DNA from: Gammaproteobacteria bacterium | GTDB lineage: Bacteria > Pseudomonadota > Gammaproteobacteria > SZUA-229 | Assembly (NCBI GenBank): GCA_029882215.1 | Contig: JAOULC010000009.1 | Coordinates: forward strand, 1 to 64,000 | Length of the DNA: 64,000 bases | Direction: 5' to 3' | Shown here: one piece after another, positions 3,268 through 8,839 of the stretch | Layout of the letters: each line of letters begins with the position of its first letter | How positions within the stretch are numbered: position 1 is the first letter of the stretch | Notes under the pieces: generated by a model | What the model saw: only the letters and a program-made list of their open reading frames with translations | Database searches by the model: none | Told to the model about the DNA's origin: nothing | Position numbers and translations under genes: made by a program

Positions 3268-4377
3268 TTAGCCGGCAGAAATAATAACAGCGGTTCTCAG
3301 CCGGTTACTGCCAAAAGAAGACATGGGATCAAAATCTTCTCGTGCAATGGGTAAGTACTGGCAGTCCAGCAGGTCCTGATGTTTTTCATCGGGATCGGGA
3401 TCATGTACATACAGGCACTTATCATCATAGCCACTGACGGTCACCCAGTGAGGTGTTTTCTTGCGATCCATGCGATAGGTGCTGATTAACATGATGGGTA
3501 TAGCTCCGCTCAGGCTGGCAGAAATCAGCATGGACTGGTTAATGTTCTCATGGTGTATGGTGATGCCTTCTGCTTTACTTTGTGCTACAAAATCATTATG
3601 AACGGTTTCGATCAGGCGCTTTTTCGCTTCACTGCGGACACCTTCTACAAACAGTGGCTGCTGCTGATTGATCCAGACCTCGGCATTAAATCCCCGGCGT
3701 CTGGCAGCCAGTGCCAAACCGATAGGGTGGCAACCGCCATGTCCAGAAGTCATATAAATCGTCGTCGCTTCTCGCCATATCTGAAGTTCTTCGCTCAATG
3801 ATGACTGATAAGTAGAAGATAAACCGGCCATTGCCATCATTAAAGATGCCGGGCCACAGGTAAACGGCGTGGTCTGTTGATACCACGGGATAATGGTATT
3901 GATTGAAGACTGGTTATGATAGCGAATACGTTTTTGCATTCGCAAAGCATCACTATGATCGTCGTAATAATCCTGCAGGTAGCCAAATTCAGTGAACCCC
4001 AGTGAGTGGTAGAACTGAATCGCGATGGTGTTTTTATGACTGACTTCCAGACGAAAGTAAAAAGCACCTCTGAGCTGTGCTTCTTCTTCACCGGCCAGCA
4101 TCAGTTTTCTGGCAATTCCCTGGCTCTGCCATTGCGGACCGACGGCAATGGAATAAAGCCGGGCTAAGCGGGTGCCACGATGAAAGATCGTCAGCAGATA
4201 TCCGACACACTCTCCGTCACACACGGCAAGCAGAAAAACGCTTTGATCACTGCTGAGAAATCGTCGCATACTGCGGCGGCTGAGCCGGTCTGTTGAAAAA
4301 CACTGTTGTTCAAGATTAAGCAAGGTATCAAGGTGTGTGAGTGTTGCCGGTTGAATAGTGATATTTTTATTAGACAT
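3268..4377 (-). CDS. GNAT acetyltransferase fused to C39-like cysteine peptidase
   Basis: A 369-residue two-domain protein. Residues 1-150 form a GNAT N-acetyltransferase (SIAVGPQWQSQGIARKLM acetyl-CoA loop). Residues 160-365 form a papain-like/C39 peptidase with Cys174 in TTPFTCGPAS, His310 in TPHWVTVSGYDD and Asp326/328 in HDPDP. I start it at ATG 4377 (MSNKNITI), because that ATG overlaps the stop of the upstream M14 peptidase gene by 8 bp, suggesting translational coupling. Comparative genomics (Pfam RLAN family notes, work on ATP-grasp amidoligases) links this fusion with RLAN-RimK ligases and a zinc carboxypeptidase, the genes found next door. Predicted role: trimming and acetylating a peptide or peptide-tagged product. 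Substrate unknown. Confidence 0.85.
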   Translation of the reverse strand: MSNKNITIQPATLTHLDTLLNLEQQCFSTDRLSRRSMRRFLSSDQSVFLLAVCDGECVGYLLTIFHRGTRLARLYSIAVGPQWQSQGIARKLMLAGEEEAQLRGAFYFRLEVSHKNTIAIQFYHSLGFTEFGYLQDYYDDHSDALRMQKRIRYHNQSSINTIIPWYQQTTPFTCGPASLMMAMAGLSSTYQSSLSEELQIWREATTIYMTSGHGGCHPIGLALAARRRGFNAEVWINQQQPLFVEGVRSEAKKRLIETVHNDFVAQSKAEGITIHHENINQSMLISASLSGAIPIMLISTYRMDRKKTPHWVTVSGYDDKCLYVHDPDPDEKHQDLLDCQYLPIAREDFDPMSSFGSNRLRTAVIISAG

Positions 4378-5467
4378 AATTAAGACCATCAAAAGCCTGT
4401 TGAATCGTTTGCCTTGCTTTAACAAGGACCAGTTCCTGCCAGTTAATATCAGACGGGGAAAAATGTGCTTTCATGGCTTCTGTACTTTTTTCAATTGCCT
4501 CGCGCTTAGCCGACCTCCAGCTCAGATGGTTGTCGATAACCACAGCAAACAAATTGTCAGTTGAATAAGTGCCAAACTCAAGTGTTACAAAGCAGCCGCG
4601 TTTCTGCATCAGCGGGTGCCAGGCATAATCAAGCAAGCCCTGCTTTAACACGGAGCAGGAATCACCGGCTGCGGGGGCAGTGACACTGGCACCATACCAT
4701 TGTCTGGCGGTGGCGTAGCCCCGACTGTTGAGCGGGTGGTCATTAATGACTTCACCGTGTGCATAAGCACCTAATCCGGTGTGTATATCAATCACCGCCA
4801 GATGTTTTTGCTTTAGCTGATAGCGCTCGATTATATGCTCTATTACCTGGCGACCGTGAGATGCTTTAGTGCCACCGTAAAAAGGACCGGACGGGTCATG
4901 ATACTGGCCGCCACTGATGGCAACTTCAAAAGCAGACTGGCCCCATTGCTGGCGGAGTTGATTAAACTGTTGTGAGCGCTGAGCTGCATCATGAGTGAAA
5001 ATGATGTTTTGTAATAACCGGTAGTTTTTATTAATCGGTAAGGAGGCAGAAAAATCAATGAAGTTACGGTTAAGGTCGATGCCATTTTCATCACAGCGGC
5101 GACTGCAGGAAAAACCATAGGGGTTAAGCGCAAAAATAATAATGACAGCCGTGTTGTCCGGCAGTAAGTTTTGCCGCTGCTGACGGATTAAAAAATCCGC
5201 TTGAATAGCGGCGCCGGCATAACCTTCGATGCCGTGTGTGGCGGAGATCAGCACAACAATGTTTTCTGCTGTGGCAGGACCAACCCAGAACAGCTCAGTT
5301 GCCAGTTCAGCGCTCTCATTGTGCTTTGTAGTGGCTAAGGGAAACGTCTCTGTATGGTCAGTCCATGGCTGCTGCTCTGCGAGAATTTTTAGTTTTGCTC
5401 TGGCAGCGGCATAGTCATGCTGAAAGCAGTTAAGTTCATCAGGGCTGAGTGACAGACGGAGCGGCAT
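4370..5467 (-). CDS. M14-type zinc carboxypeptidase (DUF2817 family)
   Basis: 365 residues. Zinc-binding HxxE is seen at His78/Glu81 (SATHGIEG), the third ligand at His229 (IDIHTGLG), substrate-binding NRNF at DLNRNF (131-136), and a probable catalytic Glu in VTLEFGTYS. No signal peptide, so it is probably cytoplasmic. It is the first gene of a two-gene minus-strand operon with the GNAT/C39 fusion and diverges from the RimK-like ligase. The pairing of a ligase that builds amide bonds with an M14 peptidase that cleaves C-terminal residues suggests editing or recycling of an amino-acid tag. That is inference; the DUF2817 substrates are unknown to me. Confidence 0.85.
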   Translation of the reverse strand: MPLRLSLSPDELNCFQHDYAAARAKLKILAEQQPWTDHTETFPLATTKHNESAELATELFWVGPATAENIVVLISATHGIEGYAGAAIQADFLIRQQRQNLLPDNTAVIIIFALNPYGFSCSRRCDENGIDLNRNFIDFSASLPINKNYRLLQNIIFTHDAAQRSQQFNQLRQQWGQSAFEVAISGGQYHDPSGPFYGGTKASHGRQVIEHIIERYQLKQKHLAVIDIHTGLGAYAHGEVINDHPLNSRGYATARQWYGASVTAPAAGDSCSVLKQGLLDYAWHPLMQKRGCFVTLEFGTYSTDNLFAVVIDNHLSWRSAKREAIEKSTEAMKAHFSPSDINWQELVLVKARQTIQQAFDGLNYV

Positions 5468-5685
5468 GTAAAGTGTCTCATGAAAAGTAGTAGATAAAAC
5501 CGTGTTGTTTATAGCCCGGCAAGCGTAGAAAAGTGTTAACAGCTACAGCGGGTTAATGGCTGCTAAGAATACTCCTAATTTTCAAATATGGAATCAATTA
5601 AATAATTATTTTTTTGTATAAAAGGCTATTGTGTAAATGAATTATTGGTCGCACAATTGGCGACTTATTTCACTCCGGAACATCC
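5468..5685. promoter_or_regulatory. divergent promoter region of the RimK-like/M14 locus
   Basis: An AT-rich 218-bp spacer between divergent genes, so it must hold promoters for both directions. A small palindrome GTCGC-7-GCGAC (5648-5664) lies 22 bp before the rimK-like ATG and could be an operator. I cannot place -35/-10 boxes with confidence. Confidence 0.4.
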
Positions 5686-7179
5686 ATGTCAGACACACTG
5701 ATTCTTATAGATAATAAAGATGATTGGGGGCCTTTTTACCCCAGTGAAAACGTTTTGACTTTTAAAGAATACCTCGATAGTTATAGTGCCTCTGGCGTGA
5801 ATGCCAGCGCTGAAAAGTCCTCTCGCCTGAGAATTATTAACCTGTGCCGAAATAACCGTTACCTCTCTGCCGGTTATTATTGCTCGCTGCTGGCTGAAGC
5901 CAGAGGGCACGGTGTTATACCATCGGTCAGAACACTTAATGACTTGAGTCAGAAAGCTCTATATCAGTTAGAACTTAACTACATGCCGGCAATGTTGTCG
6001 AAAAAAATAGCACCCAGCGAAGGTAAAGCACAGATAAAGGTGCTGAGCTTTTTTGGTACAACGACCGATCCGGAATACAGTGAACTGGCAAGAAAGCTGT
6101 TCGAGCACTTTCCCTGTCCGATACTTGAAATCACGCTGCGGCATGATAAACGCTGGAAAGTTGAAATGCTGAAGACAAGGAATCACAGTATCCTCGATGA
6201 TGCGAGCGAGACAGCTTTTGCCAAAGCACTGGATGACTTTAGTCGTAAGGTCTGGCGTAAAAAACGCTCAAAAAAGAAATTTCGTTTTGATCTGGCTATT
6301 CTGGTTGATCCAGATGAGAAAATGCCACCTTCTGATAAAACCGCGCTAAAGCGTTTCATTGCAGCCGGTAAGTCGCATGGTATTGATTGTGAACTGATTA
6401 CCCAGAAAGACTACCTGCGCCTACCCGAGTATGACGGTTTGTTTATTCGTACAACGACAGCGATCAATCACTATACGTACCGCTTTGCTAAACGGGCAGA
6501 AGCTGAGGACATGGTTGTTATAGATGACTCGACATCCATCCTGCGCTGTACCAATAAAATATATCTGGCAGACTTGTTCCGGCGTAATAAAGTGCCGTCA
6601 CCGCAGACAGAGTTAATACATAAGGGCGCACCTCAGCAAGTCACTGCCCTTGAAGACAAGATAAGCTATCCAATGGTCCTTAAAATCCCGGACGGGGCTT
6701 TCTCGGTTGGGGTTGAAAAGGTCAGTAACCGGCAGGAATTAACAACGGTGATTGAACGGCTGTTTAAAAAATCGGCATTGCTGCTGGTGCAGGAATTCTT
6801 GTATACCGATTTTGACTGGCGCATCGGCGTGCTGAATAACAAAGTGATTTATGCATGCCGTTATTATATGGTGAGAAACCACTGGCAGATTTATCAGCAT
6901 GGCGAGAATAAAACAGCCTCAGGTAATTTTGATACGTTGCCGATATCTGAGATACCCAAAGCGGTACTTGATGCGGCGATGAAAGCAACCCGGGTGATAG
7001 GTAATGGATTCTATGGAGTCGATATAAAAGAAAAAAACGGGCTGGGATATGTAATAGAAGTGAATGACAATCCGAGTATTGACAGCGGAGTTGAGGATAA
7101 ATATCTCGGCGATGAACTATACAGTATTATTATGGCTGAGCTTTTGCGAAGAATGGAATCTCGCCGCAGTCGAAACTAA
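5686..7179 (+). CDS. RLAN-domain RimK-family ATP-grasp ligase
   Basis: 497 residues. The N-terminal half (LILIDNKDDW, then RNNRYLSAGYYCSLLAEARG) is the RLAN domain. From about residue 290 there is an ATP-grasp fold of the RimK type: NKIYLADLFRRNKVPSP, nucleotide-binding Lys about residue 330 in MVLKIPDG, YGVDIKEK, and the Mg-binding IEVNDNPSI near 457-465. RimK enzymes add amino acids such as glutamate to protein or peptide ends by forming acyl phosphates. RLAN-RimK proteins are known mainly from gene-neighbourhood studies. The divergent GNAT/C39 and M14 genes are its usual partners. The target is unknown, and no obvious peptide substrate gene is seen inside the locus. Confidence 0.88.
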   Translation: MSDTLILIDNKDDWGPFYPSENVLTFKEYLDSYSASGVNASAEKSSRLRIINLCRNNRYLSAGYYCSLLAEARGHGVIPSVRTLNDLSQKALYQLELNYMPAMLSKKIAPSEGKAQIKVLSFFGTTTDPEYSELARKLFEHFPCPILEITLRHDKRWKVEMLKTRNHSILDDASETAFAKALDDFSRKVWRKKRSKKKFRFDLAILVDPDEKMPPSDKTALKRFIAAGKSHGIDCELITQKDYLRLPEYDGLFIRTTTAINHYTYRFAKRAEAEDMVVIDDSTSILRCTNKIYLADLFRRNKVPSPQTELIHKGAPQQVTALEDKISYPMVLKIPDGAFSVGVEKVSNRQELTTVIERLFKKSALLLVQEFLYTDFDWRIGVLNNKVIYACRYYMVRNHWQIYQHGENKTASGNFDTLPISEIPKAVLDAAMKATRVIGNGFYGVDIKEKNGLGYVIEVNDNPSIDSGVEDKYLGDELYSIIMAELLRRMESRRSRN

Positions 7180-7204
7180 GTAAATAAAACACAGGAATTA
7201 ACAA

Positions 7205-8002
7205 ATGGTATTTAGTAATAACCGCTTATCTGCCTTCAATATTGGTGAAATATATACCAGCAGAATAGATGAACAAAGTTTACTGCACAATGAACGCGGT
7301 GTTCGCTACCGTGATGCCGTACAGATCAGCTTACCTGACGGTGAAGTCTGGCTTTTTGATTACGGCGTTGTTGTCTTCTGGGGCATGAGTGAAGATGAGC
7401 GTCAGGCACTGATGAGTCGCCTGCAAATTGAGGACAGTTTGCTGGAAAAGATTGATCAGGAACATTTCCGCTTCGTCACCGAGGGTAACGAGCTGCGGAT
7501 TAACAGAGACACGATTACTCTAACCGATAATGACCCGCTGAAGCGGCTGGCTATCAGTCATGCTCTGGCTCAGTCATTAAAGTTGTCAGAGTATGAATCG
7601 CAAGCACAGGAGACCATCCTGAATCACTCTGATTTGCCTGCAGCTCTGGCGACAACCGGAAAAATAGCGCTGAGCCGGCGTGAGATTGCAAAAATTCGCG
7701 GCCGCTTATTCAGTGCCAAGAGTGATATTATTCTGCACTATGGCCTGCTCGATACACCGGAATTTTTCTGGGAATACCCTGAATATGAGGCAACCTATAA
7801 TACCGCAGCGCGTTATCTCGATATTCACCCGCGGCTGGAGTTGCTGTCTAAAAAGCTGGAGACTATACATGAACTGTTTCAAATGCTGGCCGATGAACAA
7901 AAGCATCAGCACTCGGCATTTCTGGAGTGGATTATTATTATACTGATAGCGCTGGAAATCGTTTTATTTGGGGCACAAAAAATTAAAGATCTATTTCTTT
8001 AA
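7205..8002 (+). CDS. RMD1/YagE (DUF155) family membrane-anchored protein
   Basis: 265 residues. The VWLFDYGVVVFWGMSEDER core, the middle NDPLKRLAISHALAQS segment and the C-terminal EYPEYE...YLDIHPRLELLSKKL helix are typical of the DUF155/RMD1 family. One C-terminal transmembrane helix (WIIIILIALEIVLFG) ends the chain, as in the eukaryotic mitochondrial homologues. It starts 25 bp after the rimK-like stop with a good AGGA site, so it is probably in the same transcript. Whether it works with the ligase is unknown; bacterial DUF155 proteins have no settled function. Confidence 0.8.
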   Translation: MVFSNNRLSAFNIGEIYTSRIDEQSLLHNERGVRYRDAVQISLPDGEVWLFDYGVVVFWGMSEDERQALMSRLQIEDSLLEKIDQEHFRFVTEGNELRINRDTITLTDNDPLKRLAISHALAQSLKLSEYESQAQETILNHSDLPAALATTGKIALSRREIAKIRGRLFSAKSDIILHYGLLDTPEFFWEYPEYEATYNTAARYLDIHPRLELLSKKLETIHELFQMLADEQKHQHSAFLEWIIIILIALEIVLFGAQKIKDLFL

Positions 8003-8101
8003 ATGTTTTTAATACAGAGTGCTGCCAGATATGAACCTGATGCAGACTGGCGTGAGAGGATAACAATCAGTCGGTATATTGTCAGCTAAGTTTGAGTGTT
8101 T

Positions 8102-8839
8102 ATGACTGAATTACTTTCATCGGCAGACTATGTATTATTAACCGTCACTATTTTAATCGCTTATACTTTTCGTGGTGTCACGGGATTTGGCTCCGGGCTG
8201 ATATCCGTGCCTTTACTGGCTTTGTTTTTACCCATCAGCTTTGTGGTGCCATTCATTAGTCTTATGGATATTTCTGCATCACTGCTGCATGCGTTACATA
8301 CACGGAAACATGTCGCCTGGAGTATTATTTTTCGGGCACTGCCGTTTTCTGTGGCCGGTGTGGCTGTGGCGTTGTTTGTTATTCAGTCTGTTGACAGCTT
8401 AATCTTAGTCAGATGGCTGGGTATCTTTATTATTGCGTTTGCAATATACAGTCTTATTGCGCCTGCACTGAAAAAAAATGATGCATTTATCTGGCCGGTG
8501 TTTGCCGGCTTTTTTGGCGGTCTTATCGGTGCTTTGTTTGGTACGGGAAGTCCGTTTTATGTGTTTTATTTTCACTTGCAGCAAATTGATAAAACCGTAT
8601 TCAGAGCCAGCTGTGCCTCGGTTTTTCTTTTGGACGGGCTTATCCGCGCGGCTGGGTTTACACTGTCGGGCTTTTATAGCGCTGAGGTTTTAATCAATAT
8701 CCTCTATGCTTTACCGCTTATGTTTTTATCAATGTATGCAGGTGAACACATCCATACCAGTATATCGCAGCGAACGTTTCAGCGTGCTGTCGGTGTTTTT
8801 TTAATGCTTAGCGGCATTGCTTTACTGTTTAAAAACTGA
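8102..8839 (+). CDS. TauE/SafE (TSUP) family sulfonate/sulfite exporter-like protein
   Basis: About 245 residues with roughly eight hydrophobic segments. The two halves each carry the family signature: RGVTGFGSGLISVPLL near residue 25 and GGLIGALFGTGSPFYV near 140. TSUP proteins export or import sulfite, sulfoacetate, thiosulfate or other small organic anions across the inner membrane. A GTG at 8096 is an alternative start two codons upstream; neither start has a strong ribosome site. It is not tightly linked to neighbours, so the substrate cannot be inferred. Confidence 0.82.
   Translation: MTELLSSADYVLLTVTILIAYTFRGVTGFGSGLISVPLLALFLPISFVVPFISLMDISASLLHALHTRKHVAWSIIFRALPFSVAGVAVALFVIQSVDSLILVRWLGIFIIAFAIYSLIAPALKKNDAFIWPVFAGFFGGLIGALFGTGSPFYVFYFHLQQIDKTVFRASCASVFLLDGLIRAAGFTLSGFYSAEVLINILYALPLMFLSMYAGEHIHTSISQRTFQRAVGVFLMLSGIALLFKN

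Follow-up and report, generated by a model that had tools for sequence, protein, structure and literature searches.

Background

Iyer et al. 2009 (Mol Biosyst 5:1636) reportedly predicted gene neighborhoods in which an RLAN-RimK ligase is encoded together with a GNAT-papain-like protein and an M14 peptidase. Here, we describe such a locus at positions 3268-8002 of a 64,000-nucleotide stretch of gammaproteobacterial DNA (GenBank assembly GCA_029882215.1, contig JAOULC010000009.1, positions 1 to 64,000), hereafter the window. The ligase, GNAT-C39 fusion and M14 peptidase families are the same as in those neighborhoods, but the window adds DUF155 as a recurrent fourth gene, and our survey of relatives adds a core with a stand-alone GNAT and a phage pair whose ligase lacks RLAN. 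The locus is real and mostly of a known type, and DUF155 as a recurring partner is its new element. No report of the DUF155-RLAN link, the stand-alone GNAT core or the phage ligase-GNAT pair was found among the open-licence papers that the searches listed. The GNAT-DUF3335 fusion is restated with reference to Iyer 2009 in a passage of PMC10318531, and that study is also cited in a passage of PMC12239564.

Other RimK-fold ligases likewise lie beside a protease that may undo their product, as outlined in a passage of PMC12239564 for RimK-RimB (S6 polyglutamylation) and RloABC of Pseudomonas. These systems differ from the present locus in having retropepsin-like proteases instead of C39 and M14 enzymes and a RimK without RLAN, and the passage mentions no GNAT. 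The RimI/Nat N-terminal acetyltransferases share their fold (Z ~23) and a Glu/Tyr pair with the GNAT of the window, although the latter is joined to a C39 domain and its gene accompanies a ligase gene, and a true RimI is found elsewhere in the genome.

The DUF155 family extends from bacteria to humans, and mutations in RMND1 cause mitochondrial disease. The window's DUF155 protein shares PF02582 and a predicted C-terminal membrane helix with RMND1, Sif2-Sif3 and Mrx10, but it is bacterial and lies beside peptide-modifying enzymes. In the passages of PMC5264221 that concern it, the action of RMND1 is described only as anchoring or stabilizing the mitoribosome.

Results

All four genes are intact, and each scores above its Pfam cut-off. 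An earlier note, made from the sequence, had described four open reading frames (ORFs), an 8-bp overlap of the minus-strand pair and a 25-bp gap between the ligase and a YagE/RMD1 (DUF155) gene, all of which were found at the positions it gave. The features are as follows:

3268..4377, minus strand: GNAT-C39 fusion protein, 369 aa from ATG 4377 (profile match, residue alignment)
3280..3891, minus strand: C39-like papain-fold domain (PF11814, DUF3335), with Gln168, Cys174, His310 and Asp326
3901..4377, minus strand: GNAT domain of RimI/Nat type (fold matches and alignment to RimI)
4370..5467, minus strand: DUF2817, M14-like zinc peptidase, with His78, Glu81, Arg134, His229 and Glu297
5468..5685, no strand: divergent intergenic region between DUF2817 and ligase, with promoter-like matches at chance level
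5686..7179, plus strand: RLAN-RimK ATP-grasp ligase, 497 aa (profiles, alignments, model, fold matches)
5806..6228, plus strand: RLAN domain (PF14401; profile match), missing from most phage relatives
6553..7086, plus strand: RimK-like ATP-grasp catalytic domain (PF08443; profile match)
7205..8002, plus strand: DUF155 (RMND1/Sif2-Sif3/Mrx10 family), 265 aa (profile match)
7919..7981, plus strand: hydrophobic helix at the C-terminus of DUF155, probably a membrane anchor (hydropathy)

The DUF155 gene begins 25 bases past the end of the ligase gene on the same (plus) strand. The open frame of the GNAT-C39 gene (3268-4425, minus strand) reaches back to a TTG at 4425; with the ATG at 4377 as the start, the gene overlaps the DUF2817 gene by 8 bases, and the residue numbering used here counts from this ATG.

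DUF155 is a recurrent partner of the RLAN ligase

The DUF155 protein matches PF02582 at 171.5 bits (cut-off 27), which places it in the family. DUF155 and RLAN each have a single match in the window's genome, at this locus. The C-terminal helix has a hydropathy of 2.49 over 19 residues, and a comparable segment (at least 1.85) is present in 33 of 34 other DUF155 proteins examined, the one exception being cut by a contig end. A sequence search of solved structures returned no convincing relative of DUF155.

Among 369 genomes of the class, with the window included in the counts, RLAN was found in 81, DUF155 in 52, DUF3335 in 62 (57 strong) and DUF2817 in 33 (14 strong and full-length). DUF155 occurred in 29 of the 81 RLAN genomes and in 23 of the 288 others (Fisher p 6e-9, kinship ignored). 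The two lay no more than 9 kb apart in 12 of the 81, that is, in 12 of the 29 genomes holding both, for which random placement in 3-Mb genomes gives a probability of about 1e-19 (kinship ignored); in eight of these 12, DUF155 follows RLAN on the same strand at a distance of at most 3.5 kb. A phylum set of 254 genomes gave 49 with RLAN, 28 with DUF155 and 18 with both (p 2.4e-8, kinship ignored), and 12 of the 18, including the window, carry the two on one contig within about 3.5 kb of each other. The linkage was also seen in 11 loci of another class.

All four families occur together at 17 loci, including L195, for which a GNAT beyond the contig end was assumed. Five gene orders are represented:

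Order 1, C39-M14 divergent from ligase-DUF155: window, L113, L051
Order 2, DUF155 after C39: L046
Order 3, ligase-M14-C39-DUF155: L116, L090
Order 4, C39-ligase-DUF155 facing M14: L190-L195
Order 5, C39-ligase facing DUF155-M14: L196-L200

C39-ligase-DUF155 without M14 was found at L114, L115 and L117-L119. Trees of 35 and of 53 DUF155 proteins, the latter with two fragments excluded, placed the ligase-linked proteins in two distant clades. The clade of the window has 11 members (support 95/90), all from RLAN genomes and 8 of them in the locus; a larger quick tree did not recover this clade and gave two supported sets and one single row in its place. For the ligase tree, 27 loci, mostly near-duplicates, were thinned by hand, one duplicate phage contig and loci too short upstream were also removed, and the gene content of L113-L128, L190-L201, L203, L209 and the phage loci was assigned by hand. 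The four-family state required 8 changes for 17 rows on this tree against a shuffled mean of 15.7, and from this distribution it seems to have been repeatedly gained and lost.

DUF155 is thus a minority but recurrent partner of the RLAN ligase, and the suggestion of the earlier note that it is an extra neighbor describes a real component of the locus. The same note held that its proposal would fail if DUF155 and the peptidases were only occasionally adjacent in relatives. By frequency they are (DUF155 as above; DUF2817 at most 6 kb from RLAN in six of the 81 RLAN genomes of the class, one of these by a weak match), yet each turns up repeatedly in varying gene orders and again in a second class, a pattern not expected of accident.

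A ligase-GNAT core with accessory peptidases

In the co-location counts, five weak partial DUF3335 matches of the 62 were excluded, as were 19 of 34 DUF2817 matches, all weak and partial, with one weak DUF2817 match (G293) kept. C39 was found at most 6 kb from RLAN in 53 of the 81 genomes, and 56 of the 57 genomes with strong DUF3335 also have RLAN. A scan of GTDB contigs gave at least 584 confirmed relatives, of which the best 80 were kept as named loci; their gene content was determined by six-frame profile searches because antisense shadow ORFs in high-GC loci misled ORF picking. Among the 70 of these best 80 with at least 2.6 kb upstream, GNAT was present at 67, C39 at 40, DUF2817 at 15 and DUF155 at 3. 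In Dyella, Rhodanobacter and their kin (Xanthomonadales), the ligase is partnered by a stand-alone GNAT without C39.

The core therefore consists of the ligase and a RimI/Nat-type GNAT, given the near-universal GNAT at the named loci and the Xanthomonadales pair without C39. The peptidases are accessories, since C39 and DUF2817 are present at a fraction of these loci and some loci and phages have a bare GNAT-ligase pair. The peptide-ligation and editing system proposed earlier thus retains its intact enzymes, its non-housekeeping ligase and DUF155 as a real extra component, but not the peptidases as core parts.

By name, many RLAN carriers are marine or halophilic, and others belong to Rhodanobacter, Dyella and their kin. 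The Xanthomonadales loci adjoin unrelated housekeeping genes, which we take to encode DUF484, an XerC-type phage-integrase family protein, and AAA and proteasome-type proteins corresponding to HslU/HslV; these were rejected as system parts because they reflect synteny of the group only. Many top matches are from methylotrophs, and the MyfA/MyfB ligases of methylofuran polyglutamate synthesis are described as ATP-grasp enzymes in a passage of PMC8141765. A role in that pathway was nevertheless set aside as improbable, because many RLAN carriers, judged by their names, are not methylotrophs. Two RLAN genes apiece occur in three genomes of a single genus (G415, G419, G498), and at the single loci L058, L053 and L108 an extra partial or second RLAN-family match lies a few kb from the main ligase.

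The ligase is not the housekeeping RimK

The ligase has RLAN (158.9 bits, cut-off 25) followed by a RimK-type ATP-grasp domain (46.8 bits, cut-off 21), and is therefore a member of the RLAN-RimK ligases. K291, K333, R379, D446, E458 and N460, the likely ATP-grasp catalytic residues by analogy, are invariant in alignments of 22 and 38 sequences. The structure model (mean predicted local distance difference test, pLDDT, 83.1) matched RimK, ArgX and LysX with Z 26.3-27.6; these matches span only the ATP-grasp part (residues 199-495), so the RLAN fold was hardly probed. RimK, LysX and MptN were the best-matching profile models. The earlier description of the ligase as divergent holds relative to RimK (~22% identity in fold matches), but within the RLAN family it is an ordinary member (40-62% identity).

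Against the S6-ligase model NF007764, the ligase scored 50.3 bits, far under the cut-off of 331, whereas two other loci of the same genome passed it at 477.1 and 384.1 bits. Identity with the housekeeping S6-modifying RimK was rejected on this basis, in line with the expectation of the earlier note. The two separate RimK genes are at G000:C118 and G000:C8.

The GNAT-C39 and DUF2817 proteins

The GNAT-C39 protein matches DUF3335/C39-like at 302.3 bits (cut-off 25) and Acetyltransf_1 at 61.2 bits (cut-off 20.7). Gln168, Cys174, His310 and Asp326 of the C39 part are invariant in 31 aligned GNAT-C39 proteins, and the PF11814 match together with the Cys-His-Asp triad places it in the DUF3335/C39-like family. 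A sequence search of solved structures found no convincing relative of the C39 part. Matches to the structure model (pLDDT 90.3) span only the GNAT part (residues 3-158), so the C39 fold was hardly probed. Among the 50 matches listed, the top folds for the GNAT part were archaeal Ard1, RimI with a peptide bisubstrate, NatA, NatC, Naa50 and Naa60 (Z 20-23.5), with RimI 2cnm at Z 23.3 over 148 residues. Glu111 and Tyr123 are invariant in the 31 sequences and align with RimI positions 103 and 115 (offset 8), presumably the catalytic residues of RimI.

By modeled fold and the Glu/Tyr pair, the GNAT is placed in the wider RimI/Nat-type N-terminal acetyltransferase group, and these Nat/RimI fold matches and retained residues place it with enzymes that modify peptides or proteins at their alpha-amino ends by acetylation. 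It is not the housekeeping RimI, a candidate that we rejected: it scored 77.6 bits (80.6 in the genome search) against a cut-off of 86.4 for the RimI model TIGR01575, and a true RimI scoring 119.2 bits is on another contig of the genome.

The DUF2817 protein scored 284.7 bits (cut-off 23). The zinc ligands (HxxE, His78 and Glu81, plus His229) and the catalytic Glu297 that characterize M14/DUF2817 peptidases are present and, together with Asn133-Arg134, invariant in 16 DUF2817 proteins. The earlier listing of intact catalytic residues was borne out for Cys174, His310, Asp326, HxxE 78-81, His229 and the ligase set, but Asp328 is outside the invariant and near-invariant lists.

Phage relatives

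Viral contigs were scanned in two family searches, with ten chosen ORFs scanned in each. Nine contigs carried the ligase: seven without RLAN, one with part of it and one cut by the contig end. In 4 of the 9, a GNAT gene lies directly upstream and overlaps the ligase frame, and some of these loci lie among terminase, portal, tail and integrase genes. On viral contigs L173-L189 (e.g. L175:3570-4882 and L173:3977-4909), one ligase type lies between a terminase large subunit gene, a few bases away, and a portal gene. An annotated phage collection gave only three weak matches, all below 30% identity.

Discussion

We read the locus as a peptide-end editing system comprising the ligase, the GNAT, optional peptidases and a DUF155 anchor, and give this reading a probability of roughly 0.5. 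The most economical account is a pair of core enzymes that modify peptide ends, to which peptidases and a membrane anchor may be added. From the observed enzyme classes, residues, fold affinities, core and company of DUF155, we infer every reaction, substrate and the anchoring as follows. The RLAN-RimK ligase would use ATP to form an acyl-phosphate on a carboxylate, located at the C-terminus or in a side chain of either a peptide or a short protein tail, which would then be joined to an amino acid. The GNAT would acetylate the alpha-amino group that begins this peptide or a partner of it. The C39 domain and the M14 DUF2817 enzyme, at loci that have them, may cleave or shorten precursors or take the modification off again. 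DUF155, through its C-terminal membrane helix, may hold the enzymes at the inner membrane, much as its relative RMND1 is itself fixed at the mitochondrial inner membrane.

Several observations weigh against this reading. DUF155 and DUF2817 are missing from most loci, so the core reaction cannot require all four genes. None of the three neighbors is near RLAN in 23 of 81 class genomes, 23 of the 52 DUF155 genomes lack RLAN, and the nearest relatives of the window's ligase are without DUF155. Removing family f199 from the phylum set reduces the association to 6 of 36 against 9 of 204 (p 0.014, kinship ignored). At L120-L123, DUF155 lies 3-7 kb from an RLAN ligase that has no GNAT match beside it; the ligase tree joins these four to two phage sequences, with support 91 and long branches.

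The most serious competitor, possible though clearly less probable, is a small acetylated oligopeptide metabolite, an osmolyte or storage compound comparable to N-acetylglutaminylglutamine amide (NAGGN), in which the ligase would join two amino acids, the GNAT would cap the amino end and the M14 and C39 enzymes would break the product down. A core of exactly one ligase and one N-acetyltransferase suits such a product, an M14 enzyme that has the Asn-Arg motif and binds zinc through His and Glu could recycle a dipeptide, and the marine or halophilic names of many carriers agree with it. On the other hand, the NAGGN synthetase model TIGR03103 matched at 25.6 bits (cut-off 569), through the GNAT part only, the GNAT resembles acetylators of peptide and protein N-termini, and the core is also found in Rhodanobacter, Dyella and their kin. 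An osmolyte pair would also be of little obvious use to a phage.

It is unlikely that the locus encodes a second ribosome-modifying set, with RimK-like and RimI-like enzymes and an RMND1-like anchor acting on ribosomal proteins or translation factors. The nearest characterized relatives are ribosomal (RimI on S18, RimK on S6 and, in the passages of PMC5264221 noted above, RMND1 as mitoribosome anchor), and phage copies would fit a takeover of translation; a passage of PMC7824862 notes that jumbo phages have GNATs close to the ribosomal type. However, both enzymes score below the cut-offs of the RimI and S6-ligase models, most RLAN loci are without DUF155, and the genome already has RimI and two RimKs, so a ribosomal target is kept as a rival and not as the main reading. 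More speculative still is a broader version, in which bacterial RMND1-family proteins would be the membrane anchors of a RimK-/RimI-like peptide-end complex whose site of action is the ribosome, or whose targets are nascent or ribosomal proteins. In this version, phages would use the two-gene form to alter host translation, and mitochondrial RMND1 would have kept the anchor part of an ancient partnership.

That DUF155 is an accidental passenger beside the ligase is improbable: the ligase's closest relatives and the majority of RLAN loci do lack it, which would agree with this, but its five gene orders, two distant clades and occurrence in a second class do not, nor does the finding that, at 20 unlinked DUF155 loci, no other neighbor recurs in more than 3 of 20, barring frames overlapping DUF155 itself. 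A graspetide-type cluster for a ribosomally synthesized and post-translationally modified peptide, like that of microviridin, which has ATP-grasp, GNAT and C39 enzymes, shares the three enzyme classes but was rejected as very improbable, as no conserved precursor peptide gene was found beside the ligase (3194 short ORFs at 81 loci gave no cluster beyond close kin, the widest covering 13 loci of one Xanthomonadales-type group), no transporter neighbor stands out at RLAN loci and the best ligase models are those named above.

Under the peptide-end editing reading, the split between core and accessory genes in the RLAN family leaves a smaller field for biochemical work, that of peptides both N-acetylated and C-extended, and the phage GNAT-ligase pairs offer a small version for assay. 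A recurrent bacterial neighborhood with two defined peptide-modifying enzymes also provides a simple system in which to test DUF155 binding.

Other features of the window

A PADLOC search with all four proteins gave zero matches, and a role in anti-phage defense was rejected. Promoter-like matches numbered 12 against 11.8 in shuffles, equal to chance; terminator-like matches numbered 12 against 5.9. A TauE/SafE-type transporter gene (8096-8839), which was not observed to be a conserved neighbor, begins 93 bases past DUF155 on the same strand. At 752-2759, a sensor histidine kinase gene is apparently split into overlapping frames (752-1447 and 1305-2759), which may reflect a frameshift or sequencing error.

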